Source of the DNA: Elusimicrobia bacterium RIFOXYA2_FULL_47_53
GTDB taxonomy: Bacteria; Elusimicrobiota; Endomicrobiia; Endomicrobiales; XYA2-FULL-47-53
DNA: 64,000 nt
Direction of reading: 5' to 3'
NCBI GenBank assembly: GCA_001800315.1
Contig: MGVE01000020.1
Span: forward strand, 94,641 to 158,640
In this document: piece after piece, positions 2,008 through 30,880 of the stretch
How positions within the stretch are numbered: the stretch's first letter is position 1
How the letters are laid out: every line of letters begins with the position of its first letter
Program-made: the position numbers and the translations under genes
The notes under the pieces: generated by a model
What the model saw: the letters and a program-made list of their open reading frames with translations, nothing else
The model's database searches: none
Told to the model about the DNA's origin: nothing

Positions 2008-2087
2008 TTAACCAACTTATAAAATATCACCCTGATTTTGCGGGGTATATTGAATATGGAAGTAAAATATCAAAAGGAGGTAGGGTA

Positions 2088-3113: not shown

Positions 3114-3133
3114 CAACTAAACAGTTTGTTCTT

Positions 3134-3215: not shown

Positions 3216-3284
3216 GCGTAAGCCTGATTTTGCGATAGAAGAGAGAGCCGGGACAAACGAAGAAATGAATCCGAAAGTGTCGTC

Positions 3285-8537: not shown

Positions 8538-8551
8538 TAAGGGAGTTTTCC

Positions 8552-10105
8552 ATGAAAAGAGAAAATGAAACAAAAGCCGTGAACAGCGCTGGCGAGCTTT
8601 CGCTCTTATTTGATATCAGTAAGGCGCTTAGCCTCAGCCTGGATGTAAAGGAAGTCTTAGGGCCGGTACTAAAGGTCATGGCCGAACACCTGGGTTTGCT
8701 GCGCGGAACTCTTACGATACTCAACCGGGAGACAGGCGAGATATCCATTGAGGAAGCCTGCGGTTTGTCCAACGAGCAGAGGGCCAAAGGGCGGTATAAA
8801 ATCGGGGAGGGAATAACCGGTAAGGTCGTTGAAAGCGGCAAACCGGCCGTCATACCCCGCATTTCGGAAGAGCCGCTGTTTCTTGACAGGACCCAGGCGC
8901 GCAGTAGAATTAATAAAAAGGAAATATCATTTATTTGCGTGCCGATTAAAAACGGCAGGGAAGTTATGGGTGCGCTGAGCGCGGACATGGTTTATGAAGA
9001 AAAGAAATCGTTTGAAGAGCATGTCAGGCTGCTAACGGTAATATCTTCCATGATAGCGCAGGCTGTCAGGCTCAGGCAGTCGGCCCAGGAGGAGATGCAA
9101 AAACTCCAGGAAGAAAACACCCGCTTAAATGAAGAGCTCAGGGATAAGTTTCGTCCGGCAAGCATCATCGGAAATTCCCACGGAATGCGGCAGGTGTACG
9201 GGCTTATAAATAAGGTTTCCAAAAGTGACGCTACGGTTCTAATCCTTGGGGAAAGCGGTGTCGGCAAAGAATTGGTGGCGCAGGCGATTCACTATAACAG
9301 CTTGCGGGCCGGCAAGCCATTTATTCAGATTAACGCGGCTGCCCTGCCGGGAGATATAATAGAGAGCGAGCTGTTCGGCCACGAGAAGGGGGCGTTCACC
9401 GGAGCGGCTTCAATGAGGAAGGGACGGTTTGAACTCGCTGACGGCGGAACGCTGTTCATTGACGAGGTTGGCGATATGCCTGTAAATATCCAGGTAAAAT
9501 TACTGCGGGTGCTTCAGGAGAAATGTTTTGAGAGGGTTGGCGGCAGCGAGCCCATAAAGGTGGATGTGCGGATAGTAGCCGCCACAAATCGCAAACTTGA
9601 CGAACTGGTCGCGCGGGGAGGTTTCCGGGAGGATTTATTTTACAGGCTGAATGTTTTTCCCATAGTCGTGCCGCCCCTGCGGGAACGAAAGACCGATATT
9701 CTTCTTCTGGCGGATCACTTCGTCGCAAAATACTCAAAGAAGAACCGAAAGGCGGTCAAGCGCATATCAACTCCGGCCATAGACATGCTTATGAGCTATC
9801 ACTGGCCAGGCAATGTGCGTGAGCTGGAAAACTGTGTTGAGCGCGCGGTTATCTTAAGCAGCGACGGAGTAATTCACGGTTACCACCTTCCCCCGAGCCT
9901 CCAGACGGCGGAAGAAAGCAAAACAGCCGCCGGCGGAACTTTGAGCTCGGCTCTTGAGAGCCTTGAAAAAGAGATGATAAGCGAGGCGCTTAAATCGGCA
10001 AAGGGAAATATGGCTCGGGCGGCGCGCGAACTGGGGCTGAGTGAACGCATTATGGGGCTGCGAGTCGGGAAATACAAAATATCTTATAAGCGGTTCAGGG
10101 AGTAG
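8552..10105 (+). CDS. NifA-like sigma-54-dependent activator (GAF - AAA+ - Fis HTH)
   Basis: 517 residues from the ATG at 8552, preceded by AAGGGAG. An N-terminal GAF domain (about 10-175) has a NifA-like stretch (KIGEGITGKVVESGKPAV, then ISFICVPIKNG). A coiled linker leads to the AAA+ domain: Walker A GESGVGKE, the sigma-54 contact loop GAFTGA, Walker B TLFIDEVGDM and the arginine finger region FREDLFYRLNVF. The C-terminus is a Fis-type helix-turn-helix (MARAARELGLSERIMGLRV). The protein would remodel sigma-54 holoenzyme at -24/-12 promoters. Its neighbours (rpoN-like gene 2 bases on, then Amt and PII) support a nitrogen role. Whether it is a true NifA needs a nif locus elsewhere. Confidence 0.9.
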   Translation: MKRENETKAVNSAGELSLLFDISKALSLSLDVKEVLGPVLKVMAEHLGLLRGTLTILNRETGEISIEEACGLSNEQRAKGRYKIGEGITGKVVESGKPAVIPRISEEPLFLDRTQARSRINKKEISFICVPIKNGREVMGALSADMVYEEKKSFEEHVRLLTVISSMIAQAVRLRQSAQEEMQKLQEENTRLNEELRDKFRPASIIGNSHGMRQVYGLINKVSKSDATVLILGESGVGKELVAQAIHYNSLRAGKPFIQINAAALPGDIIESELFGHEKGAFTGAASMRKGRFELADGGTLFIDEVGDMPVNIQVKLLRVLQEKCFERVGGSEPIKVDVRIVAATNRKLDELVARGGFREDLFYRLNVFPIVVPPLRERKTDILLLADHFVAKYSKKNRKAVKRISTPAIDMLMSYHWPGNVRELENCVERAVILSSDGVIHGYHLPPSLQTAEESKTAAGGTLSSALESLEKEMISEALKSAKGNMARAARELGLSERIMGLRVGKYKISYKRFRE

Positions 10106-10107
10106 CG

Positions 10108-11244
10108 GTGAGAAAAATATTCGCTCAGCGGCAGACCCAAAAAAACTCCTGCGCGTTTCAAACGCGTTTCGCCGGTTTTCTTGAACTGCCGGAGGATGAC
10201 TACGCGCGGCTTATCCGGGACATAGAATCGGACCCGCTTTTTATCAGGCTCAAGTACGCTCAAAGCGACGCGGAAAGGGCTATTCGCGCCCGCTGCCTGC
10301 GTCAGACAGGCCTTTCAAACAAGTTCTTTGAGTTCAAGGAAGAATTTAACGCCTGTTCCGGAGCCGATGGAGCTGAAGTGGATAAACTTCTGGCTGACAA
10401 AGAGAAACTGGTGCGAACAATAAGAAAAATCGGGGAAGCGGATTTCGTAAAATATTTTATTCATAACGAAGACGGGCATTCACTCAGCGATATAGCCCGT
10501 TTTTGCGGCCTTAAACCGGCCGAGGCCGGGGAAATCCTTGAGCTGATTAACACCGTGGATATTTACGGTGAATTCTTTGTCGCCTCGGAGCGGCCTCAGG
10601 AAAACAATTTTTCGTGCAGAAAAATCGCGGTAATCGCGAAAACGCCGGAGGGTTTTAAAATTGAATTTTTGTCGGCTCACTGGGCGCGCGGGTTATACGA
10701 GGTGGATTATGAAAAGCTTGCGAGGATGTCGGATAAGGGGAAGTTATCGGAAAGGGAGCGCGCGGGACTTAAGAAACTGCTGGAAAGAATAGAACTGATA
10801 AATCTTCGTAAATCGCTTATGCACTCTGTCATTTCAGGGGTGTTAAAAAAACAGTCGGGATATTTTAATTCCGGCGGGGAAAAGCGCCCTCTTCCCTTTC
10901 GTCAAATTGAATTGGCGGAGGAAATCAAGGTCCATCCGAGCGCCGTCTCCCGCGCGATAGCCGGCCGTTCAATTGAAACTCCCTGGGGCGAAGAGAAACC
11001 GCTTAAGTTATTTTTTTCTTCGGGTAAGGCTGAGCAAAGGGAGAAGGTTCTGCTCCTCATGGAAAGAATATTTGATGAAGAAAAGACAAAACTGATGAAA
11101 GGGGAGCTTCAAAGGCCCCTCAGTGACAGCGCGATAGCCGTTATACTGAATAATAAACATAATATCGCAATATCGGGAAGAACCGTCACAAAATACCGCG
11201 AAATATCCGGCATACCGGGAGCCTTTTCCCGCGCAAAGATTTAA
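10108..11244 (+). CDS. rpoN: Divergent RNA polymerase sigma-54 factor (copy 1)
   Basis: 378 residues, GTG start 2 bases after the activator stop. It is recognised by the C-terminal RpoN box (SGRTVTKYREISGIPGA) and by the DNA-binding region before it (IKVHPSAVSRAIAGRSIETPWG). An N-terminal segment (FAGFLELPEDDYARLIRDIESDPLF) matches the usual core-binding start. It is shorter than typical RpoN (about 430-500 residues), and the Gln-rich activator-interacting region I is reduced to about 20 residues with few Gln. It should direct polymerase to -24/-12 promoters with the adjacent activator. A paralogue lies at 48975-50087. Confidence 0.85.
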   Translation: MRKIFAQRQTQKNSCAFQTRFAGFLELPEDDYARLIRDIESDPLFIRLKYAQSDAERAIRARCLRQTGLSNKFFEFKEEFNACSGADGAEVDKLLADKEKLVRTIRKIGEADFVKYFIHNEDGHSLSDIARFCGLKPAEAGEILELINTVDIYGEFFVASERPQENNFSCRKIAVIAKTPEGFKIEFLSAHWARGLYEVDYEKLARMSDKGKLSERERAGLKKLLERIELINLRKSLMHSVISGVLKKQSGYFNSGGEKRPLPFRQIELAEEIKVHPSAVSRAIAGRSIETPWGEEKPLKLFFSSGKAEQREKVLLLMERIFDEEKTKLMKGELQRPLSDSAIAVILNNKHNIAISGRTVTKYREISGIPGAFSRAKI

Positions 11245-17377: not shown

Positions 17378-17444
17378 GGATTAGGCGCCTTAATTGCGCA
17401 TCTCGCGGGATTATCAGGAAGCGCTCCGCTATTATATTTACACA

Positions 17445-17493
17445 TTGAAAATTACTCAAAGCATTGAGTATAATTACTCAATTCATTGAGTAA
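17445..17493 (+). promoter_or_regulatory. Orphan promoter with two palindromic operators
   Basis: TTGAAA (17445-17450), an 18-base spacer and TATAAT (17469-17474). Two palindromes overlap or follow it: TTACTCAA/TTGAGTAT (17452-17471) and TTACTCAA/TTGAGTAA (17474-17493). A half site TACTCAAT lies at 17511. No gene starts within 170 bases, so the regulated gene may have been lost. Confidence 0.6.
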
Positions 17494-17608
17494 ATTGTAT
17501 GGATTGAATGTACTCAATAACAAAAATAACTCATAGTCCGTGGCTTGACCGACGACACTAATCATATACTGACATTCCTAATGGCTCTGCAAATCAATAT
17601 TTAATCCA

Positions 17609-17637
17609 TTGACAAATACACATATATGTATTATTAT
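17609..17637 (+). promoter_or_regulatory. Promoter of the AbiE operon with palindromic spacer
   Basis: TTGACA (17609-17614), a 17-base spacer and TATTAT (17632-17637). The spacer contains ATACA...TGTAT, a possible binding site for the AbiEi antitoxin. The ATG follows at 17666. Confidence 0.65.
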
Positions 17638-17665
17638 TTAGTAAACACTAAACAAAAGGACATAT

Positions 17666-18442
17666 ATGAACCACTACAACAGTCTTCAAATCCGCGAAAT
17701 ATTCCATGTAGAATTTCTCCGTTGGTTTTCACGAAAATTTAAGCCCGAGGTCTATGCGTTAAAGGGTGGGGTTAATATTCGTCTTTTCTTCAAAAGTAGG
17801 AGATATTCGGAAGACATGGACCTGGATGTTAAATCGGTAAGTGTAGTAACGCTAAGGGATTCTGTCATGAAAATACTGACATCCCCGGTATTCGCGAAAG
17901 ACCTGAAACCTTACGGTATTGAAGAAGTGCAACCGCCTGACATTACCAAGGCAAAACAGACAGGTACTACTCAAAGGTTCAAGCTTCACCTCATTACCCA
18001 GAACAATGAAGATCTCTTCACGAAAATTGAATTTTCAAGAAGAGAGGGAAAGGGTATCTCAATAGTTGAATCAATTCCTGACACTGTTTTGCGTCCATAC
18101 AAAACTTCGCCGTTCGTAATTAGCCATTACGATGTTAATACCGCAGTTTCGCAGAAGATTGGGGCGCTGGCCGGCCGCAGTGTAGTCCAGGCAAGAGATA
18201 TCTTTGACCTATATACATTATCAACCCAGTATGAATCATCAAATAGTAAAAAAGCGTTAAATGACCAAAACACCATTGATAAAGCCGTTGATAATTTGTT
18301 TTCGGTTGATTTTAATCAGTTTAGAGACACAGTTGTTGCATATTTGACCGATGAAGATAGATCTGTGTACAACAGTCCTGAAACCTGGGACGAGATTAAG
18401 TTAAAAGTGAGCGAACTAATATGCCAGAAAAAGCCCCGTTAA
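17666..18442 (+). CDS. abiEii: AbiEii/AbiGii family nucleotidyltransferase toxin
   Basis: 258 residues. The nucleotidyltransferase signature is YALKGGVNIRLFF followed by RYSEDMDLDV (Ser-x-Asp-x-Asp metal site). A middle TKIEFSRRE and a later VQARDIFDLYTL are typical of the family. AbiE type IV toxins modify nucleic-acid targets (tRNA in the studied MenT relatives) and stop growth on phage attack. It overlaps the antitoxin gene by 22 bases. The toxin is upstream here, the opposite of the classic abiEi-abiEii order. Confidence 0.88.
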   Translation: MNHYNSLQIREIFHVEFLRWFSRKFKPEVYALKGGVNIRLFFKSRRYSEDMDLDVKSVSVVTLRDSVMKILTSPVFAKDLKPYGIEEVQPPDITKAKQTGTTQRFKLHLITQNNEDLFTKIEFSRREGKGISIVESIPDTVLRPYKTSPFVISHYDVNTAVSQKIGALAGRSVVQARDIFDLYTLSTQYESSNSKKALNDQNTIDKAVDNLFSVDFNQFRDTVVAYLTDEDRSVYNSPETWDEIKLKVSELICQKKPR

Positions 18443-19053
18443 TCACATATATAAAAAAAACAAACAACCCCATATTTACAACCCGCGAGCTATCCTATAT
18501 TTCGCATAAATCGGTTTCTGCGGTTACTCAGGCCTTGAATACCCTTGAAAGGCAAGGCGTTGTAGATAAATTATATAGAGGAATATGGTCCGAGAAAACT
18601 CATAAGCCAGTCAGTCCATACATGCTTGTGCCGCATCTTATAAAATCTAGCAGGATATATGTATCGTTTTTGAGCGCCTTGCATTTACATGGAATTATAG
18701 AGCAAATACCTCAGACGATTACACTGGCAGCCACTACGCATACAAAAAAAATACAAACAAAGCTTGCAACCTTTCAAATACACCAGATATCTCCGGATTA
18801 TTTATTTGGATTTGACTGGTATAAAGAATCAGGCAGTTTTCTTATAGCGGAACCCGAGAAAGCCTTTGCGGATTGCCTCTATTTATTCACAAAAAAGAAA
18901 AAACAATACGGATACTTCCCGGAGCTCAATCTTTCAAAACCCTTTGATATTAAGAAAGCCGAGTCATATATTCTAAAAATTCATGATAGTAGAGCAAGAG
19001 CGCTTGCCCTGAAAAGGTTTAAAGAAATTATTGAATTGAAGGTCTTGAAATAA
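18421..19053 (+). CDS. abiEi: AbiEi family antitoxin / transcriptional regulator
   Basis: 210 residues. The N-terminus is a winged helix (TTRELSYISHKSVSAVTQALNTLERQG), followed by the AbiEi body with AEPEKAFADCLYL, a conserved stretch of the family. It should repress the operon by binding repeats in the promoter region and neutralise AbiEii. It starts inside the toxin gene. Confidence 0.85.
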   Translation: MPEKAPLITYIKKTNNPIFTTRELSYISHKSVSAVTQALNTLERQGVVDKLYRGIWSEKTHKPVSPYMLVPHLIKSSRIYVSFLSALHLHGIIEQIPQTITLAATTHTKKIQTKLATFQIHQISPDYLFGFDWYKESGSFLIAEPEKAFADCLYLFTKKKKQYGYFPELNLSKPFDIKKAESYILKIHDSRARALALKRFKEIIELKVLK

Positions 19054-19300
19054 GGCTATATTCTTTTATAGTATCTTGACAAATACGATTGTATAATTAA
19101 TTGTACATACGAATAATATATTATACAAATGTGTGTAATATTATCTGCAGCGAATTAAATAAATGTCTCGTTTATACCTGTCGTTCCTAAAAGTGCTGTA
19201 AATCAGACCGTACCATTTTGCATTGTACTGCAAATTGGTACTGATTATTGTTTTATGTTGATTTCCAGCTCTTGGCGTACTCTAAAACATCATATTTAAC
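19054..19300. other. Intergenic region with operator-like palindromes
   Basis: TTGTATAAT and ATTATACAA form a 9-bp inverted repeat around 19089-19128, just after TTGACAAATAC (identical to the start of the AbiE promoter). No gene follows until 19370, so this may be a second orphan control region. Confidence 0.45.
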
Positions 19301-19350
19301 TTGCAATGACATTGCAATATAAGTATAATAATACAGCAATGGCGTTGCAA
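19301..19350 (+). promoter_or_regulatory. Promoter and palindromic operators of the DUF4143 ATPase gene
   Basis: TTGCAA (19301-19306), a 17-base spacer and TATAAT (19324-19329). The -35 box is part of a perfect palindrome TTGCAATG-A-CATTGCAA (19301-19317). A related site GCAATGGCGTTGCAA lies just downstream of the -10 box. The layout suggests tight repression. Confidence 0.7.
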
Positions 19351-19369
19351 GGCATATAAGGGAAAGAAA

Positions 19370-20641
19370 ATGAATAAAGAACTATTGTTGCAGGTAATCA
19401 AAGACCAGAGAAAAGTATCATTGATTGAAAACATGGTCAAACGCGAAAAGCTCAAAGATATAGAAAGATACAAGAAGACAAAGCATATAGTGGTTATAAG
19501 CGGCTTACGGCGCTGCGGTAAATCCACATTACTTGATCAAGTAAGAAGCTCCGAAAAACAGCGTGACTATTACATTAATTTTGACGATGACAGGCTTATT
19601 GATTTTCAAGTAGCGGATTTTCAAATGATGTTTGAAGTGTTCATAGAGCAGTTCGGTGAGCAGGATATATTCTATTTTGATGAAATACAAAATATAAAAG
19701 GGTGGGAACGGTTTGTCCGTAGGCTATATGATAGTGGCAAAAAAGTGTATGTTACCGGCTCAAATGCTTCCATGCTGAGCAGGGAACTTGGAACACATTT
19801 AACAGGAAGGTATGCTCAAGTTGAGCTTTACCCTTTCTCATTCGGAGAGTTCCTGCATTTTCATAAACTACCCTATAATCTAAAGCAGGGGCTCAGCAGT
19901 TCCGAAAGAAGTGTTATTAAAAAGAATTTCTTATTGTATTCTAATACCGGCGGGATCCCCGAATATGTAAGCACTGGACAAGTAGATTATATCAAGATGT
20001 TGTTTGACAATATTATCTACAGGGACATTTTTGCGCGATACCATGTTTCAAACGAGAAGCAATTCAGAGAAATGGTGTATTTTGTAGCAAGCAATATAGG
20101 AAAGGACATAAGCTTTGTTTCAATAAAAAATATGGTGGGTCTCGGAAGCTCCAATACAGTGCGGGAATACCTCCACTATCTTGAAAACTCATATTTGATA
20201 TTTTTGGTAACAAAGTATGAAAGATCGGTAAAGAAGCAGCTGTACGGTAACAAGAAAGCGTACATGGTTGATAATGCTCTGGCAAAATTGGTGGGTTTTA
20301 GATATGAGGACGAAAAAAGCAGAATGCTGGAAAATACCGTGTTTATTGAATTGAAGCGCCGCGGAAAGGAAATATATTTTTTTAGAAATAACAGAGAATG
20401 CGATTTTTTGATTAAACAAGAGAATAATATAGTGGAAGCCATCCAGGTATGCTTTGTTTTGCGTGACGAGCAGACAAAGGAAAGAGAAGTTGAAGGCCTG
20501 ATAGAAGCAATGCAAGACTGTTCTCTAACAACAGGGACCATTCTGACTAATGACGAAGAAGATACGCTGACAGTTAAACGGGATAAAACATATCAGATAA
20601 AAATACAACCGGTCTGGAAATGGCTGCTGAAAACCACTTAA
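19370..20641 (+). CDS. AAA_14 / DUF4143 family ATPase
   Basis: 423 residues. Walker A is SGLRRCGKSTLL, Walker B is DIFYFDEIQNI, and sensor 1 is KVYVTGSNASML. The middle GRYAQVELYPFSFGEFL is the family hallmark. The C-terminal DUF4143 part ends in a PD-(D/E)XK-like segment (ENTVFIELKRRG, CDFLIKQ). Such proteins are common in archaea and uncultivated bacteria, are highly mobile and have no settled role. It is a single gene with its own operator. Confidence 0.88.
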   Translation: MNKELLLQVIKDQRKVSLIENMVKREKLKDIERYKKTKHIVVISGLRRCGKSTLLDQVRSSEKQRDYYINFDDDRLIDFQVADFQMMFEVFIEQFGEQDIFYFDEIQNIKGWERFVRRLYDSGKKVYVTGSNASMLSRELGTHLTGRYAQVELYPFSFGEFLHFHKLPYNLKQGLSSSERSVIKKNFLLYSNTGGIPEYVSTGQVDYIKMLFDNIIYRDIFARYHVSNEKQFREMVYFVASNIGKDISFVSIKNMVGLGSSNTVREYLHYLENSYLIFLVTKYERSVKKQLYGNKKAYMVDNALAKLVGFRYEDEKSRMLENTVFIELKRRGKEIYFFRNNRECDFLIKQENNIVEAIQVCFVLRDEQTKEREVEGLIEAMQDCSLTTGTILTNDEEDTLTVKRDKTYQIKIQPVWKWLLKTT

Positions 20642-20977
20642 TGTCAAAAATTAATGTGCAACTAGGCTATGGCCTTCCACCATGTTATGTACCAGTGTTA
20701 GGTAGAGTCATTAGTGCCAATTTTTTCAACTTACAAGTGGTTTAGTTTTTGGGGGCAGGTCACATTCATATAGGACATTTTACTGTGACATACTGCGACT
20801 TCGTTCCCTTGAGAAATACTTTTTTAAAAGATAAAATAAACAAGTAATGCAGAATACAGTTTCTGTGTAAAAGGTGAAAAAAGTGACCTGGGGTGAAATA
20901 ATTCAATTCAACAAGTGAACCATTCTGCGCAGTAAGGACAGGGTGGTTTTTTTGATTTATTATAAGGATGGTAAAAC
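20642..20977. other. Intergenic region with mobile-element remnant
   Basis: CAGGTCAC at 20756-20763 and GTGACCTG at 20883-20890 form an inverted repeat about 135 bases across, in a context (GGGGGCAGGTCACA) seen at REP-like or insertion-sequence ends. No open frame survives between them. No gene was found here. Confidence 0.4.
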
Positions 20978-21325
20978 ATGAGCGAAATCAATGTCATGAT
21001 AACCAAAATTAGGAAATTTCGTGATGAACGTGACTGGATGCAGTTTCATGACCCAAAGAACATGGCAATTTCAATAATTTTAGAGGCCTCAGAGTTACTT
21101 GAGCATTTTCAATGGAAAGCAAAACAGGAAGTTGAGGAATATGTAAAAGCTAATAAAGGGCAAATTCAAGATGAAATAGCTGATATCGCCATGTATTTGT
21201 TTGAGTTGGCAGATAATATGGGGATTGACCTGATCAAAGCAATGGATAAAAAACTAAAGAAGAACTCTACAAAATACCCAGTTCACAAAGCTAAAGGTAA
21301 ACATACTAAATACAACAAATTATGA
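20978..21325 (+). CDS. MazG-like nucleotide pyrophosphohydrolase
   Basis: 115 residues. The MazG/dCTPase-type motif is visible: ILEASELLEHFQW, then DEIADIAMYLFELAD (the E-x-x-E and D-E-x-x-D metal ligands). The N-terminal RDERDWMQFHDPKNMA is also typical of this small family. Members hydrolyse nucleoside triphosphates to monophosphates and pyrophosphate. The stop overlaps the ATG of the next gene (ATGA), so the two are translationally coupled. Confidence 0.85.
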   Translation: MSEINVMITKIRKFRDERDWMQFHDPKNMAISIILEASELLEHFQWKAKQEVEEYVKANKGQIQDEIADIAMYLFELADNMGIDLIKAMDKKLKKNSTKYPVHKAKGKHTKYNKL

Positions 21326-22434
21326 CCCCTTTTGACTTAACTCCATCATTAACCACCAAAGGCTTTTTCCGGTTTACCGGCCCTCCGGAACATTGGCTAA
21401 CAGCAGTAAAATATATGACTTGGGGTTTAGAAGAAAAACATAGGAAGGGTTGGGAAAGAATACGGTCGGGAGATGTTTTCTTTATTCATAGTACACATAA
21501 CTCATTTTTCAATAATGCCAAATCCGGTATTATTGGTATTGGTGTGGTTGGTTCAAATTTTTCTATTAAGAACAATCATTTGTGGCTTTATGAACATCAA
21601 CATCACGAGAATAGGTGGCCTCTTTTAGTGCCTCTGTCGGAAATATATTTATTTAGTCAGTTGCCAGATACTTCCAGTTGGGAATCACCAAATATTGATA
21701 ACAAAAGCCAAAGTGAAAAACTAATAAGCCAATTACTAAAAAACTATATACCGCTTTCAAATGTAAAAGGATTCCCTCAAATGGGAAGCTTCTCTGCAGT
21801 TTCAAAAGAAGTTGCAAACCAGATTCTTTTTGATAAACGGCCATTGTATGAGTATAGCGATGAATCAAGCATAGAAGGCGACATTGAAGCATTAAGGCCA
21901 ACCAAACTTGAAAAGGTCAATAATATTTCGGAATCCTTTAGATATGCCGATACCTTAAAGGTGTTTGATAGTATTAAACAACGAATAGTAAGCGAAACTC
22001 CCGGTTTATATAGTAAAAATAATGAATTATTGGCAAAAGCTGAAGAGGCTCATTGTAATATACTTCAGCAATTACTCGAGATATTTAAGCAAAAAGGTTA
22101 TGATGTCAGAAGTAATCCCCATGTTGACCTTTTTGCACATGATGGTAGTAGGGCATTCCTTATAGAAGTAAAAAGTACTGAAAACAGAAATTTCCGTACA
22201 CAAGCAAGAAAAGGTCTTGCCCAGCTTCTTGAATATGATTATTTTGAAGTAAACAGATTTGTAAGTGAAGAAAATTTACATTTAAAAGATAAATATAGAA
22301 TACTCGTACCATCGCAATCACCAAAAGATAATAACTACATAGAATTTCTAAATAATTTAAATATTGGCGTGGGAATCGTAAATAGGGATGTTATTAAGCC
22401 TGTAGGGGAAGATTTCGGATTTTCTAAGTTATAA
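21322..22434 (+). CDS. EVE/PUA-like domain fused to a PD-(D/E)XK nuclease domain
   Basis: 370 residues. The N-terminal ~125 residues look like an EVE/PUA-type modified-base reader: [20 protein letters not shown], then [24 protein letters not shown] and LVPLSEIY. The C-terminal part (about 245-340) has a nuclease pattern: [12 protein letters not shown] (Asp), AFLIEVKST (Glu-X-Lys) and [15 protein letters not shown]. The middle is low in motifs. The arrangement suggests a modification-sensing restriction nuclease. It overlaps the MazG-like gene by 4 bases and is 31 bases from the DUF2075 gene. Domain calls are by eye. Confidence 0.6.
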
Positions 22435-22465
22435 ATACTACTTTAGCCAAACTTCAAGGAATAAC

Positions 22466-24442
22466 ATGTCAAGAGCATATTACACTGATTCCATCGCAAA
22501 TTTTATTAAGGCTAAATCCGAAGAGATAATCGGAAAGCTGACAATGAGCAATGTTTTTAATTTAGAACAATCCCAGCGCGATGCCTGGGTTGAGGAAATT
22601 GCAATATTGCAATCCGTGCTTACCGAACATACAGGGTCGGTCTATTTTGAATACTCGATCCCCAGGATGGGGAAAAGGATTGATGTAGTATTGCTCATTG
22701 GACCGGTAATCTTTGTGCTTGAATTTAAAATCGGAGAGCATGTATTCACCTCATATGCTACCGATCAGGTTTGGGACTATGCTTTAGATTTGAAGAATTT
22801 TCATGAAACGAGCCACAACGTATATATTTCACCAATTTTAATTGCATCTAAGGCAAAAACTGGTGAATACATGGCAGTGGCGACACCACACAACGACAAA
22901 ATCCTCGTTCCGATCAAGATTAATACGGAGCAGCTTGGGGAGGCAATTAATGGTGTTTTGCGTTTTGCCAAAGGTGATGTAATAGACAATGCTAATTGGG
23001 AAAGTGGTAGGTATTGCCCTACGCCGACAATTATAGAGGCAGCTATGGCTCTATATAATAGCCATTCCGTAGCAGATATATCTCGTAGCGATGCAAGCGC
23101 AATTAATCTAAGTCAAACATCCGATGCAATTTCGAAAATTATTCACATGTCTAAAGAAAAAAGTCAAAAATCAATTTGTTTTGTAACAGGTGTTCCGGGC
23201 GCCGGCAAAACACTGGTTGGGCTTAATATCGCAACAACACATTTTGATAAAACAAATGAATTGTATAGTGTTTATTTGTCAGGGAATGGACCTCTTGTTG
23301 CTATCTTGCGCGAAGCGTTGGCTCGCGATAAGGTACGTCGTTCAAAAGATAAAGGTGATAAATGCAAGAAAGGTGAAGCAATGAGTGAGGTTAAGATGTT
23401 TGTTCAAAATGTTCATCATTTTCGTGATGAATGCTTGATCGATCCGAAAGCTCCTCCAGTAGAGCATGTTGCATTATTTGATGAAGCACAGCGGGCCTGG
23501 AATAAAGAGCAAACTGTTAATTTCATGCGACGAAAGAAAAATACGCCCAATTTTGACAGTTCCGAGCCTGAGTTTCTGATATCATGTCTCAATCGTCATC
23601 TCGATTGGGCAGTCATAGTATGCCTTGTGGGTGGTGGACAGGAGATTAATACCGGTGAAGCAGGTATAATTGAGTGGATTGATTCGTTGAACCGATCATT
23701 CCCGGATTGGCACGTATATATATCTTCGCGGCTTAATGATAGTGAGTATGGAGCAGCTGAGGTAATAAATAAATTGAAATCACGTATAAATGTTGTAGAC
23801 AATAAAGCTTTACACCTTTCAGTTTCGATGCGTTCATTTCGTACCGAACATGTCTCTCTACTAGTCAAGCAATTACTTGATCGTAACGCTGACGATGCAC
23901 GACAGACACTTAAAAATGTCGAAAATAAATATCCAATAGTTATCACACGCAATCTTTCAACAGCGAAAAGCTGGTTAAAGTCTCAAGCGCGTGGATCTGA
24001 ACGATATGGTATAGTAGCTTCTTCTCAGGCAGAAAGATTGAAGCCACAAGCTATTAATGTAAAATCTCCGATGGATCCAATTCATTGGTTTCTTGATGGC
24101 AAGGAAGATGTAAGATCATCGTACTATTTAGAAGATGTTGCCACGGAATTCCATATTCAAGGACTTGAACTTGATTGGGCCTGTGTAGCGTGGGACGCCG
24201 ACTTCAGATATACTGCCGCTGGTTGGGAGCATAGATCATTTTGCGGTGATAGTTGGAATCATATTAGGAAAAGCGAACGCAAAACATATCTCCATAATGC
24301 CTACCGAGTGCTTCTTACACGTGCCAGGCAAGGTATGGTGATCGTTGTACCATCCGGAGATGAAAATGACCCAACGCGCAACCCCAAATATTACGACCCA
24401 ACATTTGAGTATTTAAAGGAAATAGGGTTCAAAATAATTTAG
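22466..24442 (+). CDS. DUF2075 helicase/ATPase with N-terminal nuclease-like domain
   Basis: 658 residues. Residues about 40-110 have a PD-(D/E)XK-like core ([12 protein letters not shown] with Asp, FVLEFKIGE with Glu-x-Lys). The helicase part has Walker [14 protein letters not shown], Walker [14 protein letters not shown], a [14 protein letters not shown] motif III region and C-terminal [16 protein letters not shown] plus [14 protein letters not shown] (motif VI). This is the DUF2075 (Schlafen group 3-like) arrangement. It probably acts on nucleic acid using ATP. It lies 31 bases after the EVE-nuclease gene and most likely shares its operon. Confidence 0.8.
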
Positions 24443-24634
24443 CTTATAAAACTGCTGAATTTGGACTTGAGATGCAAATTTACGCAAAACAGCTACGATT
24501 GAGTTAGAATAATTCCAAAAGCTAGTCAGTATGAGGCTTGCAAAACTTTTGGCTTTAACTATTAAATAAATGAGGCATTAGAATTTCGTCTATTAAGTTA
24601 TTGCGTATAATAACTGTTAGGTGGTGAAAATAAA
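24443..24634. other. Intergenic region ending in the first cassette boundary
   Basis: No gene. At 24616-24622 stands GTTAGGT, a perfect GTTRRRY integron crossover sequence, with AGTTAT...ATAACT as an inverted repeat just upstream. The next gene starts 12 bases later, as in an integron cassette. It may be the remnant of an attI site or of a lost cassette's attC. Confidence 0.5.
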
Positions 24635-26083
24635 ATGAAAATAAGCAAAATATTTAGACTAAATAAAACTCAGTTAGAACTTGATTTTATTGATATTGAT
24701 TTAGGGAAGGATATCCCCCTTTTTATTGACCCTTATTACCTAGGTAAAAGAGTTGATTTATGGTCAATTAATGCTAATCGTACCGTTAGAGACTTCTTTC
24801 AAACATTCATAGATCAAGTCAGAGCCGGAAACCATGTGCAGGCAAAGGAATTATTTCTTTATTTGCATGAACCAAATGAAACTCGATTGGGATTATCTAG
24901 AAAGGAACCTATGGGTAAAGGCATAGGGACTATAGATGCAGAAAAGATTTTTAAAAGTTTATCTCAAAGCAAGGCAGTTAAAACAGGTTTGATTCAAGAT
25001 ATAGAAGATTGTAGAATCTTTATAGAAGGAATAGACAGAGATAAAGTTTCAGATATGACTACAAACATTATTAAGCAACATCTTATAGAGTATACGCAAT
25101 CGCAATGTAAGCTTTGGGGTATTCCATTAACATCTAATATACAGTCAGGTGATTTTTGGGATAAAGTAACTCATTCATGGGACAATATACTTACAGATAT
25201 GTTAGTAGTTAGAGGTGAAAAAATATTATTGGTTCCAAAGAGTGTTGTTTCTTTTAAAACAGACTATACACCACAACAATATTATCGTCATTTTGTTTTA
25301 AACTTTTTACAAAATGAACATTTAAGATTGCATACCCATTTAGTGCAAAAGCATGAATATAAAAATGGAGAGACTAGAGAATTTGTAACAAAAAAAAGCA
25401 TCATGGAAAGAGATTCTCCATATTCAAAAGAATTTGTTATTTCTTTTACGCAAAAGCATCCTGAAATATTTAGGAATTTTAAGAAAAACCCTACAATTAA
25501 ATTGAAACCTCATAAAACGCTTTATACTTCCGAACCAAAACTAGTTGAAATAATTGACCACTTAGTTAAAGAATTAAAAAATATTCCTTCTGGTCCGGAA
25601 AATGCAACAAAATATCATAGAGCAATCACGGGAATACTTGAATTAATATTTCATCCTCAATTAACAAGTCCTCAAATTGAGAAAGAAATTAACGACGGAA
25701 GAAAAAGAATTGATATAACATTTGACAATGCGGCTACTTTTGGTTTTTTTCATTACCTTCCAACCACGCATGGAATAACTTCTATATTCATTTTAGTAGA
25801 GTGTAAAAACTATTCAAGAGACATAAATAATCCAGAATTAGACCAGATGGCAGGAAGATTTTCTCCTAATAGAGGTAAGTTTGGTTTTGTTGTGTGCAGG
25901 AAGATAGATAATTTAAAATTGTTTATTCAAGGGTGTAATGATACTTATAAAGAAAACCGAGGAGTAATAATCCCTCTTGTAGATGATGATTTAATAAATA
26001 TTTTAGAAAACATAAAAAATGGAGTTGCGGGCTTTGCTGAAAATCTCATTAAGGATAGATTTCGAGAAATAGCAATAAACTAA
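24635..26083 (+). CDS. Cassette-borne putative PD-(D/E)XK nuclease, family unknown
   Basis: 482 residues, AT-rich. Residues about 370-440 hold a nuclease-like core: DGRKRIDITF (Asp), IFILVECKNYSRD (Glu-x-Lys), then LDQMAGRFSPNRGKFGFVV, which resembles the Gln/Met-containing helix of restriction-type folds. The N-terminal 130 residues (LELDFIDIDLGKDIPLFID, KEPMGKGIG) and the middle (SVVSFKTDYTPQQYYRHF) are not recognised. It lies between a GTTAGGT boundary and an attC site, so it is one mobile cassette of about 1.5 kb. A defence role is inferred from fold and context only. Confidence 0.6.
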   Translation: MKISKIFRLNKTQLELDFIDIDLGKDIPLFIDPYYLGKRVDLWSINANRTVRDFFQTFIDQVRAGNHVQAKELFLYLHEPNETRLGLSRKEPMGKGIGTIDAEKIFKSLSQSKAVKTGLIQDIEDCRIFIEGIDRDKVSDMTTNIIKQHLIEYTQSQCKLWGIPLTSNIQSGDFWDKVTHSWDNILTDMLVVRGEKILLVPKSVVSFKTDYTPQQYYRHFVLNFLQNEHLRLHTHLVQKHEYKNGETREFVTKKSIMERDSPYSKEFVISFTQKHPEIFRNFKKNPTIKLKPHKTLYTSEPKLVEIIDHLVKELKNIPSGPENATKYHRAITGILELIFHPQLTSPQIEKEINDGRKRIDITFDNAATFGFFHYLPTTHGITSIFILVECKNYSRDINNPELDQMAGRFSPNRGKFGFVVCRKIDNLKLFIQGCNDTYKENRGVIIPLVDDDLINILENIKNGVAGFAENLIKDRFREIAIN

Positions 26084-26084
26084 A

Positions 26085-26142
26085 TATCAACAAAGCGCTC
26101 CAGCCTACCGCGTACCGCGGTAGCGGAGCTTGAATGTTAGAT
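26085..26142 (+). repeat. attC recombination site 1
   Basis: 58 bases. R'' ends in AAC (26089-26091) and R' is GTTAGAT (26136-26142), matching GTTRRRY. Between them the arms CTCC/GGAG and CTACCGCG/CGCGGTAG fold back almost perfectly. This is the standard attC layout of an integron cassette. Confidence 0.85.
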
Positions 26143-26284
26143 TGAGTCTATAGCTATATTGGGGCGTTGGTCTGTTGTCTTTAAAGCTGTTTTTTATTTT
26201 TTTATTCGTATTGATGATTATATCAACAATACTAAAATAAGGGGACACAATACTAATTAATTTTAATAAAACGATTACAACGAC
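26143..26284 (+). other. Short cassette without a convincing gene
   Basis: The cassette between attC1 and attC2 is about 155 bases in total and very AT-rich. I see no plausible coding frame on the + strand. It may carry a promoter or an RNA, or be a decayed cassette. Confidence 0.45.
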
Positions 26285-26344
26285 ATCTAACAAGTCAATC
26301 CAGCTGACCGTGCTCCGCACGGCAGCTGATTTCGGATGTTATGC
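26285..26344 (+). repeat. attC recombination site 2
   Basis: 60 bases. R'' is ATCTAAC (perfect RYYYAAC, 26285-26291) and R' is GTTATGC (26338-26344). The inner arms CAGCTG-A-CCGTGC and GCACGG-C-AGCTG pair with small bulges, as expected of the folded bottom strand. Confidence 0.85.
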
Positions 26345-26378
26345 CCGCAAATAATTGGATATTACAACGAGCAATAGA

Positions 26379-27035
26379 ATGAAATGCATTTCGCTGGTTT
26401 GTACGGTACATGAAGAGAATGGCCTCGCGAATGTCTCGGGATTGTACGCAATCCTGGAGCGAATTCAGCCGGAAGTTATTTTTATCGAGGCCCTTCCTGA
26501 TGCGCTCGATCAATTCCTTGCCGCTTGCACCAACAACAAGCTGGAATCAGCCGCAGTAAGGCGATATCGCGAGAACAGCATCGTTGAACTCGTTCCGGTT
26601 GATCTTCCAACGCCGAAAAGCCGCTTCTTTAGCGACTATAGATACTTGCAAGAGATGATTGAAGGTAAGAGCCCGGCTTCCCGACGCTTGATAATGTGGA
26701 ATAAAAATTACGTGCGCGACCACGGATTCGCCTATCTGAATAGCGAACATTGCAGCAAAATGTGGACCGAGATTTATGCGGACGAACGTGCTGTAATTGT
26801 GAAAATTAAGGACCAACGACTTACTGAAATTTCCGAAATATGGAATAAAACAATAGAGTTGCGTGAAAATGAGATGATGAAAAACATCCTGAAGTATTGC
26901 GACGAAAATTCGTTCGAACGGGGTGTATTTCTTATTGGTGCTGCGCACAGGCAGTCCATCATCGAAAAAACGAAAGAGTGGTCTGAGAAATATCCGAACC
27001 TCATTCAGTGGGATTTTACTTGTGGAAAAAATTGA
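26379..27035 (+). CDS. Cassette-borne hypothetical protein, possibly TraB/ChaN-like
   Basis: 218 residues from the ATG at 26379 (an in-frame TTG lies at 26355). VHEENGLANVSGLYAILERI, then EVIFIEALPDALDQF near the N-terminus, and GVFLIGAAHRQSIIEK near the C-terminus, have the spacing of TraB/PrgY-like proteins (early His/Glu motif, later GAAH). The match is weak and no function is claimed. The codon use is less AT-rich than cassette 1, which fits independent origins of cassettes. It lies between attC2 and attC3. Confidence 0.55.
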   Translation: MKCISLVCTVHEENGLANVSGLYAILERIQPEVIFIEALPDALDQFLAACTNNKLESAAVRRYRENSIVELVPVDLPTPKSRFFSDYRYLQEMIEGKSPASRRLIMWNKNYVRDHGFAYLNSEHCSKMWTEIYADERAVIVKIKDQRLTEISEIWNKTIELRENEMMKNILKYCDENSFERGVFLIGAAHRQSIIEKTKEWSEKYPNLIQWDFTCGKN

Positions 27036-27050
27036 ATAAATGAAAGGCGG

Positions 27051-27108
27051 TCATAACAAGGCGCTTCAGCTGACCGCGGTCCGCGGCAGTTGAGCTTAGG
27101 TGTTAGCA
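27051..27108 (+). repeat. attC recombination site 3
   Basis: 58 bases. TAACA at the left and TGTTA at the right pair. Inside, CTTCAGCTG / CAGTTGAGC and CCGCGG / CCGCGG fold back with bulges. R' is GTTAGCA (27102-27108). The overall shape is close to the common 59-base element. Confidence 0.88.
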
Positions 27109-27118
27109 CTTCAATAAA

Positions 27119-27352
27119 ATGAAAACAACCGCATTGAACCAACTATTTGACAAATGGATACTGACTTATCCAGACCACGACTATGGATTTCATCGGGATG
27201 GGATTATCCTTGAAGACCAGTTCAATAAGGAGCGCCACCGAATCCTGTTCGTAATGAAAGAGCCTAATAGCAGTGATGGGGCATTCAATCACTTCATAGG
27301 TATGGACCTGCGGGAGTTGTTTGGACAGAAACTGCACAATAAAACTCATTGA
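27119..27352 (+). pseudogene. Truncated fourth cassette gene
   Basis: 77 residues, starting 10 bases after attC3. The sequence RHRILFVMKEPNSSDGAFNH resembles the start of a larger uracil-DNA-glycosylase-like or hypothetical cassette protein. The frame ends in TGA made of a T plus the first bases of a REP-like repeat (GAACGGTGCCTGGC at 27351). No attC follows. The gene is therefore a fragment cut off by the repeat. Confidence 0.6.
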
Positions 27353-27388
27353 ACGGTGCCTGGCTTCACTAACTTCACTAAAAATAAA
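27350..27388 (+). repeat. REP-like direct repeat, left copy
   Basis: TGAACGGTGCC followed by TGGCTTCACTAACTTCAC and AAAAATAAA. The last 28 bases recur at 28729-28756 downstream of the cupin gene. Confidence 0.75.
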
Positions 27389-27407
27389 TATGTAGTTTCT
27401 GGGAAGA

Positions 27408-27433
27408 ATAATGGGGGCGGTCCCCATTATTAT
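27408..27433 (+). promoter_or_regulatory. Hairpin next to the ribosome site of the MBL gene
   Basis: AATAATGGGG and CCCCATTATT form a 10-bp stem with a 5-base loop. The ribosome site AAGGAGC follows within four bases. It could end an upstream transcript or limit access to the start. Confidence 0.5.
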
Positions 27434-27446
27434 AAGGAGCTAGTGA

Positions 27447-28187
27447 ATGCTTAAGAAAGTTTTGGTTCGAGTCGCGGTGGTTTTGGGTGTTTTGATTTTG
27501 GGTGCCGGTGGTTTTGCCGGGTGGTTCTTTTATCAAGTGAGGGAGATGCATCCCTTGGAAACCGGGAAGATATCTGATTCGGTCTATGCGATCAAGGGCG
27601 ATATGGGCAATATGTTCATAGTTAAAAATAAGGATGTCTATATTGCTTTTGATGCCAGCGACAATGTTGGAAAAATTAAAAGCGGGTGCGAATCGCTTTC
27701 TATTGATCCAAATCTTGTGCGGGCAGTTTTCCTGACTCATTCGGACGCCGACCATGTTGACGGGTTGCCGGCCTTCCCGAATGCAAAGGTATATATCTCA
27801 AAAGACGAAGAGCCGCTTCTTAAGGAAAAGACACACCGGCATTTCATGGGTATGGCGCACATGAACAAGCTGCCGGTCAGTGAATACATTACGCTCTCGG
27901 ACGGCGATTCCGTAAATGTTGACGGCATAACCGTTAACGCTGTATCTACGCCGGGGCATACGCTGGGTTCTATGTGCTACAGGGTCGGCGATGCTTTGTT
28001 CGTAGGCGATCTGTGCATGATCGTAAATGATACCGTGCGCCCTATGATAAAGATTTTCACGGAAGATATGGCGACCGACGCGGAATCAATAAAAAAGATA
28101 GCAAAGTTAAATAATTTTAGCCGCATATATACCGCTCACTCCGGCTACACGCGCGACCTGGAGAAGGCCCTGAAGGACTGGCGCTAA
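27447..28187 (+). CDS. MBL-fold metallo-hydrolase, membrane anchored
   Basis: 246 residues with an N-terminal hydrophobic anchor (about 7-30). The metal site is THSDADHVDG (first motif), STPGHTLGSM (second His), FVGDLCM (Asp) and YTAHSG (last His). The chain length and spacing fit the metallo-beta-lactamase superfamily. The substrate is unknown. It precedes a secreted cupin by 58 bases. The gene pair is bracketed by direct REP-like repeats. Confidence 0.85.
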   Translation: MLKKVLVRVAVVLGVLILGAGGFAGWFFYQVREMHPLETGKISDSVYAIKGDMGNMFIVKNKDVYIAFDASDNVGKIKSGCESLSIDPNLVRAVFLTHSDADHVDGLPAFPNAKVYISKDEEPLLKEKTHRHFMGMAHMNKLPVSEYITLSDGDSVNVDGITVNAVSTPGHTLGSMCYRVGDALFVGDLCMIVNDTVRPMIKIFTEDMATDAESIKKIAKLNNFSRIYTAHSGYTRDLEKALKDWR

Positions 28188-28245
28188 TTAATGCGAATAT
28201 TTTAAAAATACGGGTCGGCGCGATTACTCTGGGAGAAAATATAAT

Positions 28246-28716
28246 ATGTTAGAGATAAATAAAAAACCGGTTTTGGCGAGATGGGCCTTGCTATTATTTC
28301 TTGCGTCCGGGTTTGGCGTTCAGTCCACGCAGTGCGGCGATAACGCTTATAACGCCGGGGTTGAAAGCAGACAGGTTATGCGCTGCACGCAAACCGCTAT
28401 AGGGCAGGACCTAAAATATCCCGCAGCCAAAAGTCCCGAGGTAACTTGTCTTGAGGTCACTGTTCATCCAGGGCAGGAAACGGGGTGGCATACCCATTCG
28501 GTGCCGGGTTACGCATACATTGTTTCCGGTGAATTGACACTGGAATATCCGGGAAATATTTCCAAAGTATTTAAGGCAGGCGAGGCGTTCGCCGAGGTTG
28601 TAGATACTAAGCATAACGGTGTAAACTACGGGAAGAACGATGTCGTGCTTGTAGCATTTTTTACAGGTGACCGTGGCGTACCGTTCACAAAGAAGTTGGA
28701 TGACAAGGCAAAATAA
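28246..28716 (+). CDS. Exported cupin-domain protein
   Basis: 156 residues with a signal sequence or anchor (about 10-27). The cupin core is HPGQETGWHTHSVPGYAYIVSG (His-x-His motif 1) and a motif 2 around GEAFAEVVDTKHNGVN with His. The domain is a small metal-binding barrel. The role is unknown; it probably sits in the periplasm beside the MBL-fold protein. Confidence 0.8.
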   Translation: MLEINKKPVLARWALLLFLASGFGVQSTQCGDNAYNAGVESRQVMRCTQTAIGQDLKYPAAKSPEVTCLEVTVHPGQETGWHTHSVPGYAYIVSGELTLEYPGNISKVFKAGEAFAEVVDTKHNGVNYGKNDVVLVAFFTGDRGVPFTKKLDDKAK

Positions 28717-28718
28717 GT

Positions 28719-28792
28719 TTCGGCGCCAGGCTTCACTAACTTCACTAAAAATAAAGTGAACGGTGCCAGGCATGACTTATGTGACTTATTAA
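28719..28792 (+). repeat. REP-like direct repeat, right copy (two units)
   Basis: CGGCGCCAGGC plus the 28-base block shared with 27361-27388, followed at once by a second unit, GTGAACGGTGCCAGGC. Confidence 0.75.
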
Positions 28793-28866
28793 AATAGCAG
28801 GTTGGGGTCTTGCAATACGACAAGCGTGGTTCGTGGTCAGCACCGTACTCAAAAATAGGGGGATAA

Positions 28867-29307
28867 ATGCTTAAAAAAGAAGTTGGGATTTTAGTGTTGA
28901 TATTGTCAATGATGTTTGCATTTGGTTGTGGGAAGAAAGAGCCGGCAAAGGCTCAAGCCGATAGTAATGCGGCAACAAACGAGACGCAAACGACTGAGGA
29001 ATCAACAAGTATCGGAAGCATAGGCGCAATGAACGAAGATAAATATGTTGAACTTACCGCCGAAGAGTATTTGCTGATAAAACAAATGACAGATAGAAAA
29101 GTGAGCGGTAAATACACAATTAGCGATAAAACATTTGAAGATGAATATAATAAAACTATGAACAAAAAATCCGCCTCGCTTGGCGTAACGATGGATGAGT
29201 ATAGTAATTATAAAACATCTTTAACATCTGCTAAAGAGAATGAATTGATTGATAAAATAGCTGCAAGGTATGATGAGAAAATGATAGAAGTAATGAAAGT
29301 CAAATAG
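28867..29307 (+). CDS. Putative lipoprotein
   Basis: 146 residues. The signal ends in the lipobox FAFGC (Cys at residue 21). A Thr/Ser/Glu-rich linker follows, then a helical, charged domain with VELTAEEYLLIKQM. I do not recognise a family. It should be attached to the inner leaflet of the outer membrane or the outer face of the inner membrane. Confidence 0.65.
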   Translation: MLKKEVGILVLILSMMFAFGCGKKEPAKAQADSNAATNETQTTEESTSIGSIGAMNEDKYVELTAEEYLLIKQMTDRKVSGKYTISDKTFEDEYNKTMNKKSASLGVTMDEYSNYKTSLTSAKENELIDKIAARYDEKMIEVMKVK

Positions 29308-29356
29308 GTTTCCCCGTGTCATATTAACAGCAATACTTCCATTTAATTTTCGATGA

Positions 29357-29596
29357 AGAAATATAGAAACGATTGGTGAGATTGTTGAGGCAACGGAAAC
29401 ACTAAACAGCAGGGTGTCAAAAAATGCGCATAAATACCATGGTTAGGTTTTAGATGCCAGTTTATCAGGCGTTTTTAAGATGTCCGTAATAGCCACAGAT
29501 TTTAAAAATCAGCTCAGGGAAGCAGTAGGTGACCGGTATGTTACAATGATTAATGAAAAAAACCAGCTGCCGGCAAATGGAAACCAAGAAAATTAG
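29357..29596 (+). pseudogene. Remnant of a short coding frame with an in-frame stop
   Basis: One frame reads IETIGEIVEATETLN..KYHG, then TAG, then VLDASLSGVFKMSVIATDF and on to a stop at 29594. The amino acid mix looks coding (amphipathic helices), but there is an internal stop and no good start. The portion after the stop could be a separate 38-residue gene from the ATG at 29480. Family unknown. Confidence 0.35.
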
Positions 29597-29634
29597 TTTA
29601 ATGTCTGAAACTTTGGTTAATTAAGGAGTATTAA

Positions 29635-30177
29635 GTGGCTGAAATGATGCTCACGCTTGAAGGGCGGCACTTTAGAAGAAACTACCTTCTTTATATTATC
29701 GAAATTACGCATGGGAATGATAAGCATTTTTATATAGGGCAGACAGGCGATCACAAATATGTAACTGCACGACCGGCATATAGAAGATTGGCAGGACATC
29801 TGTCAGATGTTGGGAAAAGTACGGAAAATCAGGTTTATCGCTATTTGGTTGAAAAAGTGATCGGGTTTAAAGAAGCAATTGGAAATAAAAATAAGTTCAG
29901 CGATGAGGTAAAGAAGGCAGTTGAAGATTACCTTGTTAATTCTACGGTGAAAATGTATATTTATCCCTTACAGGATTTTAAACCCGGTATTGATCAGGCC
30001 AATCACCTGCAAAATGTTAGAAAAGTAACACTTTTTGAAAAAATGGTAACAAAATTGTTTGTGGGCAATTCAATAGAGATAGCAAACAAAAAAATAACTA
30101 AACCTAAACTTGGTGTTGAATGTCCATATCCTATGGTTTTAGATGAAATAGTATCAGATTTTAACCTAAAGCAATGA
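29635..30177 (+). CDS. GIY-YIG-like putative nuclease
   Basis: 180 residues, GTG start behind TAAGGAG. The N-terminal third has the order of the GIY-YIG fold: YLLYIIEI, then HFYIGQTGD, then RPAYRRLAGHLSD (Arg/His). The catalytic Glu would lie in the C-terminal half (TLFEKMV is one candidate). The rest is not recognised. It is the last gene of the AT-rich island before tRNA-Arg. Confidence 0.5.
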   Translation: MAEMMLTLEGRHFRRNYLLYIIEITHGNDKHFYIGQTGDHKYVTARPAYRRLAGHLSDVGKSTENQVYRYLVEKVIGFKEAIGNKNKFSDEVKKAVEDYLVNSTVKMYIYPLQDFKPGIDQANHLQNVRKVTLFEKMVTKLFVGNSIEIANKKITKPKLGVECPYPMVLDEIVSDFNLKQ

Positions 30178-30201
30178 TTGAGTGTTCCTTGGTGATAATC
30201 G

Positions 30202-30230
30202 TTGATTTTTACCCCTCGTTTAGGTATAAT
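30202..30230 (+). promoter_or_regulatory. Promoter upstream of tRNA-Arg
   Basis: TTGATT (30202-30207), a 17-base spacer and TATAAT (30225-30230). The tRNA lies 286 bases further on. A hairpin (CACATTCGA/TCGATGTG, about 30252-30277) sits in between, so a separate small RNA is also possible. Confidence 0.45.
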
Positions 30231-30392
30231 ACCACAAGAGGACAGGAAAACCACATTCGATAAATGTTCGATGTGTATGGTGAAATAGGCTCATTTTTTG
30301 GCTTTTCAGGAGTTGTCAGGAAATAGCACAATTAGCAGGTGCTTTTTTAATTTACCGACGACATAATTGTAAATAAATACTTTAAGACGGCA

Positions 30393-30482
30393 ATGCGCCC
30401 ATAGCGAAACTAGCCACTGTGCGACGAATAAGGAGCACAAGCCCAGTGGCCCGCGCGAGACAGTGAGCGCGGAAATATAGAA
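30393..30482 (+). repeat. tRNA-Arg 5' fragment followed by a two-hairpin repeat
   Basis: AATGCGCCCATAGC repeats the first bases of the tRNA-Arg at 30516. Two hairpins follow: CCACTG/CAGTGG enclosing TGCGACGAATAAGGAGCACAAGC, then CCGCGC/GCGCGG. The same two-hairpin design is found at 37172-37231. Confidence 0.55.
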
Positions 30483-30515
30483 ACCTGAACTCACAAAATA
30501 GAAAGCAAATTTAAT

Positions 30516-30590: not shown

Positions 30591-30880
30591 GTATTTAACA
30601 AAACCACCTCCAATTCTACTGCAAAACAAAAATTTGGGTTACGCCTTCGTCAAACTCACCTTATGTAGCTTTGCTACACTGCGGTTCGTCATCCTTGGCT
30701 CACTCCAAATCTTTGTTTTTCGTTACGAATAGAGGTGGCTTTGTTAAATACCTTTGAAAAACAAAGCATTAGAGACGGGTTAGGTGGGGAAGTACAATTT
30801 GAAAGTCAAAAACGGAGTTATGTTTTTCGCTACGAATAGAGGTGGTTTTGTTAAATACCTTTGAAATGCAAAGTCATCAA
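30591..30880. repeat. Palindromic repeat cluster after tRNA-Arg
   Basis: GTATTTAACAAAACCACCTC (30591-30610) is inverted at 30732-30751. AAACAAAAATTTGG and CCAAATCTTTGTTT give a second inner pair. A direct copy of the right arm (TACGAATAGAGGTGG and after) recurs at about 30824-30877. No gene is present. Confidence 0.75.

Follow-up and report, generated by a model that had tools for sequence, protein, structure and literature searches.

The window analysed here is a stretch of 64,000 nucleotides from Elusimicrobia bacterium RIFOXYA2_FULL_47_53 which carries, within an island of low GC content, three intact open reading frames on one strand (Table 1). ORF1 and ORF2 overlap by the four bases ATGA and ORF3 follows ORF2 at a spacing of 31 bases on the same strand, in agreement with the layout given in an earlier note on this DNA. 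The domain assignments made in that note also hold, with ORF1 in the MazG-like family PF12643, ORF2 combining a match to the EVE profile with a nuclease motif, and ORF3 in PF09848 with an N-terminal nuclease-like domain. The island is bounded by a phosphotransfer and housekeeping region on one side and by a tRNA-Arg/tmRNA pair on the other, and the presence in it of AbiE, PDC-S01, and PDC-M36A genes bears out the defence-island setting that had been proposed. The operon had been placed between a toxin–antitoxin pair and an integron array. Both flanks are present, in the form of the AbiE pair and three attC sites, although the AAA_14/DUF4143 gene and the PDC-M36A-like gene intervene between them and the operon. 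No methyltransferase family was matched by the ten island proteins covered by the Pfam scan (smaller open reading frames lie outside it), and neither McrB GTPase nor McrC nuclease genes were found by Pfam or PADLOC among ORF1–3 or their neighbours. The low GC content of the island, together with the lack of a full-length ORF2 relative in 59 related genomes, points to horizontal acquisition.

Table 1. Features of the low-GC island and their positions in the window.
Feature	Position	Strand	Description
Low-GC island carrying ORF1–3	17378-30515 (~13 kb)	.	GC 0.30-0.46 vs flanks 0.46-0.51
AbiE pair (AbiEii/AbiEi)	17666-19053		In island
AAA_14/DUF4143 ATPase gene	19370-20641		PADLOC PDC-S01; between AbiE pair and ORF1
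ORF1	20978-21325	+	MazG-like, 115 aa, intact
ORF2	21322-22434	+	EVE + PD-(D/E)XK-like, 370 aa, intact
ORF3	22466-24442	+	SLFN-g3 (DUF2075) helicase, 658 aa, intact
PDC-M36A-like gene	24635-26083	+	482 aa; between ORF3 and first attC; PADLOC PDC-M36A, 141 bits
attC site 1	26084-26147		DNA fold z-score -4.3
attC site 2	26284-26346		DNA fold z-score -4.1
Cassette gene	26355-27035		Between attC sites 2 and 3
attC site 3	27051-27111		DNA fold z-score -1.9

Immediately downstream of the tRNA-Arg gene (30591-30873), a repeat of about 47-53 bases is present in both inverted and direct copies, possibly remnants of a mobile element. A 35-base direct repeat, 94% identical between its two copies (27354-27388 and 28721-28755), is found near metallo-hydrolase-like and cupin-like genes, with a shorter related copy at 28761. 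Elsewhere in the window, two paralogues that by eye resemble the C-terminal part of sigma-54, with RpoN-box-like ends, are located at 8522-11244 and 48975-50087, one of them directly 3' of a GAF-AAA-HTH activator-like gene (also by eye).

Since no protein anywhere in the genome scores above the TIGR02249 cut-off for an integron integrase, the attC cluster looks like one without an integrase. Folding typical of attC is absent at the candidate stretches 20655 and 24490-24625, the sites being present only from 26084 on. The possibility that ORF3 is an integron cassette was rejected, as no attC lies at its borders and none is shared in the flanks of its homologues. The PDC-M36A-like gene starts 192 bases after ORF3, has an attC site directly behind it, and encodes a protein with a C-terminal RID..ECK nuclease-like motif. 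In another genome of the same phylum (G128, locus L159) the order MazG, SLFN-g3 helicase, PDC-M36A-like gene is that of the window minus ORF2; there the last gene lies at 2024-3472 on the minus strand and its product is 41% identical to the window protein over 484 columns. The gene is therefore a possible fourth member of the operon. Its membership is uncertain because of the 192-base spacing, the attC site behind it, and a 53% identical homologue that occurs in genome G190 without MazG or helicase.

ORF1 matches PF12643 with an E-value of 5e-21 and, among solved structures, a pyrophosphatase (4qgp, E 1e-24) and human dCTP pyrophosphatase 1 (DCTPP1; 6sqw, E 9e-20). The closest solved relatives include the human and mouse enzymes (DCTPP1/RS21-C6), and homology to the former extends over nearly the whole length of ORF1, although the human protein is a eukaryotic housekeeping enzyme with no operon link. 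A metal-site motif of the EExxE..ExxD type is present (E36-x2-E39 ... E66-x2-D69), and its residues E36, E39, E66, and D69 are invariant in nine relatives drawn from restriction or helicase neighbourhoods. ORF1 is thus predicted from its sequence to be a (d)NTP pyrophosphatase of the DCTPP1/RS21-C6 type. Human DCTPP1 hydrolyses 5-methyl-, 5-formyl-, and 5-halo-dCTP, and a house-cleaning role has been proposed for this enzyme (PMC7162842, PMC4491611); unmodified dCTP is also hydrolysed by enzymes of this type (PMC7162842). The MazG protein closest to ORF1 in the phylum (67% identity; L161, 4137-4475) adjoins open reading frames resembling a C5-cytosine methyltransferase and a Vsr-type endonuclease.

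No Pfam family matches ORF2 above its cut-off. A profile built from the N-terminal region of ORF2 and four relatives matches EVE/UPF0310 structures (2p5d, E 6e-9; 1wmm, E 3e-7), and two of these five proteins, both relatives of ORF2, pass the Pfam EVE cut-off alone. The N-terminus of ORF2 (about residues 10-115) is accordingly an EVE domain. Toward the C-terminus, a nuclease-like domain (about residues 225-350) contains D269, E282, K284, Q294, and R296, and the pattern D-x12-E-x-K followed by Q-x-R is invariant in six sequences, that is, ORF2 and five other proteins. The best PDB matches of this domain, XisH and the Hjc resolvase, are both non-significant. Structure prediction of ORF2, advised in the earlier note, was run with AF2 from the single sequence and was uninformative (pLDDT 33), the model being untrustworthy because too few relatives exist. 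For these reasons the C-terminal domain is assigned by motif as a putative PD-(D/E)XK-like nuclease. ORF2 is very rare. A tblastn search recovered one homologue that matches over the full length, carried by a Halosegnis plasmid. McrB-like AAA ATPase genes from other haloarchaea matched the N-terminal domain, which in them precedes the AAA module; 294 genomes sampled from the phylum gave only partial matches to the nuclease domain. No full-length homologue was found in two other phyla, in surveys that had no positive control, nor any viral homologue among the viral sequences searched.

ORF3 is a PF09848 Schlafen-group-3 (SLFN-g3) helicase (E 3e-84) and corresponds over residues 1-656 to the PADLOC single-gene candidate PDC-S41 (961 bits). 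Among 29 homologues, the N-terminal residues D73, E86, and K88 are invariant, as are the Walker A motif (242-249), DEAQR (339-343), and GGGQE (389-393). ORF3 is therefore an SF1-type helicase with an N-terminal PD-(D/E)XK-like domain. Its AF2 model (pLDDT 72) matches the RecD, Hef, and SLFN14 helicases, and McrC over 157 columns; since the TM-scores are low (0.15-0.29), the model supports the fold class only. With Schlafen proteins ORF3 shares only the group-3 helicase domain: the N-terminal Schlafen core (AlbA-type RNase) of Schlafen proteins proper was not found, the domain at this end of ORF3 being of the PD-(D/E)XK-like type.

The earlier note had also put forward this exact combination of three genes as a candidate new defence operon. 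In the 80 best ORF3 homologue loci, from many phyla and at 63-76% identity, ORF2 is never present and MazG occurs in two (L055 and L063); as some of these contigs are short, the absence of partners is to be read as a lower bound. The exact trio was thus rejected as a conserved system. Under the refuting condition set in that note its novelty is weakened, and ORF3 is already covered by PADLOC as the single-gene candidate PDC-S41. The two positive loci are arranged as PDC-S41, MazG, and a GIY-YIG-SLFN-g3 protein, with a four-base overlap (L055), and as MazG, SLFN-g3, and PDC-S41 (L063), so that in both of them MazG accompanies a second SLFN-g3 helicase besides PDC-S41.

On the other hand, the combination recurs when it is considered by function. 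Plasmids were searched with ORF1 (25 records) and with a DUF2075 protein of Priestia (40 records). The 12 records common to both searches all carry MazG and SLFN-g3 on the same strand, and in seven of the 25 records both genes lie within 1 kb, against 0.55 expected under random placement. Among 198 genomes of the window's phylum, PF09848 is found in 11, DCTPP1-type MazG in 16, and both in seven (hypergeometric P 1.5e-6 with the window and 1.2e-5 without it, uncorrected for shared ancestry, which affects the counts). In three of these genomes, that of the window, G018, and G128, the two genes lie next to or very close to each other. In Priestia, a gene coding for an MrcB_N-HNH protein overlaps MazG by four bases and is followed by DUF2075, with a NUDIX gene upstream. 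In Lactiplantibacillus plantarum, one strand carries NUDIX, a SauUSI-type PLD-helicase-DUF3427 protein, MazG, and SLFN-g3. In Nocardiopsis eucommiae the order is PUA-like-HNH, MazG, and DUF2075, the frames of the last two being broken. By their domain content, the loci of Priestia, Lactiplantibacillus, and Nocardiopsis (with its broken frames) are full analogues of the window operon. Partial arrangements exist as well: MazG adjoins PUA-like-HNH in Streptomyces, N. flavescens, and Peribacillus, and an EVE-like-HNH gene in G115, from the window's phylum, while on the Halosegnis plasmid the full-length ORF2 homologue and MazG are placed tail-to-tail, and the 11 kb covered there contain no helicase. 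Structures matched by the PUA-like-HNH profile are 6yex (E 3e-12), which we take to be the EVE-HNH enzyme VcaM4I, and McrA (6ghc, E 2e-4); between the N-terminal domain of this family and the EVE profile, hhalign gives an alignment probability of 80%. Two homologues, in S. albus and R. fascians, have neither partner. The association of MazG, a modification-dependent nuclease, and a Schlafen-type helicase is therefore recurrent and modular at the level of function, which lends support to the idea, put forward in the earlier note, that such a set may act on modified or foreign nucleic acid, as the combination appears in unrelated genomes.

Several known systems resemble parts of this operon. Like the EVE-type modification-dependent endonucleases exemplified by VcaM4I, ORF2 fuses a predicted reader of the EVE superfamily to a putative nuclease, with no methyltransferase partner recognised beside it; this nuclease is however PD-(D/E)XK-like, whereas that of VcaM4I is HNH, and the genes next to ORF2 encode MazG and a Schlafen-group-3 helicase. 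SauUSI-type Type IV enzymes also offer a precedent for a modification-dependent nuclease beside a nucleotide pyrophosphohydrolase, since MutT has been described next to SauUSI homologues (PMC7641849), and in L. plantarum MazG and SLFN-g3 come directly after such an enzyme. Here, by contrast, a DCTPP1-like enzyme would do the sanitising, and two proteins share the roles of reader, nuclease, and helicase. ORF3 matches PDC-S41 end to end, although that model is listed as a single gene and ORF3 comes after MazG and an EVE-nuclease. With McrBC there are two points of contact, as the EVE domain of ORF2 is also N-terminal in haloarchaeal McrB-like ATPases and the modelled N-terminus of ORF3 appears to align with McrC, but the operon contains neither the McrB GTPase nor the McrC gene. 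The EVE/DCD survey does not mention MazG (PMC7641849). In the literature covered, which included few subscription papers and no bioRxiv, no link was described between DUF2075 helicases and MazG or defence, and no description was found of MazG with Type IV restriction or with EVE.

The reading that we prefer, to which we give an even chance of being correct, is that of a Type IV-like modification-dependent restriction operon provided with a guard of the nucleotide pool. We infer the substrates, the cleavage, the order of events, and the antiviral function of ORF1–3 as follows. The EVE domain of ORF2 would read a modified base in incoming DNA, most likely a C5-modified cytosine, and the PD-(D/E)XK domain would cut the modified invader DNA, on which ORF3 could then load in order to unwind or further degrade it. 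ORF1 would hydrolyse modified dCTPs derived from infection or from the breakdown of modified DNA, keeping them out of the host chromosome so that the ORF2 nuclease is not directed against its own cell. A further effect of ORF1 may be to deny the phage its modified precursors. The sanitation step is proposed because of the biochemistry of DCTPP1 and the precedent of MutT in the SauUSI neighbourhood. The presence of MazG beside modification-dependent nucleases in independent lineages counts for restriction. Against it count that the exact trio of subfamilies is unseen elsewhere, that the nearest ORF3 homologues are mostly partnerless, that the nuclease fold of ORF2 is assigned from motifs and sub-threshold matches, and that many MazG genes of the phylum have no recognised restriction neighbour (about 11 of 18 places). 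A broader proposal is more tentative and, in our judgment, rather doubtful: a widespread, unnamed class of modular restriction systems. In these, a DCTPP1-type MazG would purge modified dCTP and prevent self-restriction, while interchangeable reader-nucleases (EVE-PD-(D/E)XK, EVE/PUA-HNH, MrcB_N-HNH, or SauUSI) and an SLFN-g3 helicase would destroy modified invader DNA.

Those same partnerless ORF3 loci (none of the closest 80 with ORF2 and two with MazG) would be expected if the genes were stacked by chance, MazG and the EVE-nuclease forming one unit and ORF3 a separate one, with PDC-M36A and AbiE as further independent units. This explanation, which we regard as unlikely but as the most serious competitor, agrees with the single-gene status of PDC-S41 in PADLOC, with the Halosegnis pair, which has no helicase across the 11 kb covered, and with the mosaic nature of the island. 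Against it speak the repeated presence of DCTPP1-type MazG next to other SLFN-g3 helicases, including the PDC-S41 loci L055 and L063, and the short spacing of 31 bases between ORF2 and the co-oriented ORF3.

Other explanations give MazG a different task. Nucleotide depletion has parallels in defence by dCTP deaminase and dGTPase, and MazG might likewise be the effector, which upon detection of phage DNA would deplete dCTP or other dNTPs and starve replication, the nucleases supplying or amplifying the signal. The hydrolysis of plain dCTP by DCTPP1-type enzymes (PMC7162842) and the inclusion of MazG domains among the uncharacterised predicted defence domains of DefensePredictor (PMC13092281) speak for it, but general starvation would give no reason for MazG to adjoin modification-dependent nucleases in particular, and the NUDIX genes at the Priestia and L. 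plantarum loci fit sanitation better; we consider it improbable. In about 11 of its 18 places in the phylum MazG has no recognised restriction neighbour, and it is therefore not dedicated to restriction. This observation, and the fact that MazG and NUDIX are sanitation enzymes in general, would also suit a host operon for DNA repair or nucleotide hygiene dealing with damaged bases and not mainly with defence. Against such a role speak the sporadic distribution, the low GC content, the plasmid and island locations, and the neighbouring AbiE, PDC-S01, and PDC-M36A genes, and we give it little credence.

The restriction reading with a nucleotide guard is of biological significance because enzymes that attack modified DNA carry a risk of self-poisoning, as nucleotides set free from a modified phage genome can re-enter DNA synthesis and end up in the host chromosome, which then becomes a target. 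If the reading is true, encoding a guard alongside the restriction enzyme would solve this problem directly, the guard would be an immunity factor of a kind new to restriction, and the model makes clear predictions about substrates. A function would likewise follow for the numerous DUF2075/Schlafen-group-3 helicases and MazG-like genes that occur in defence islands.
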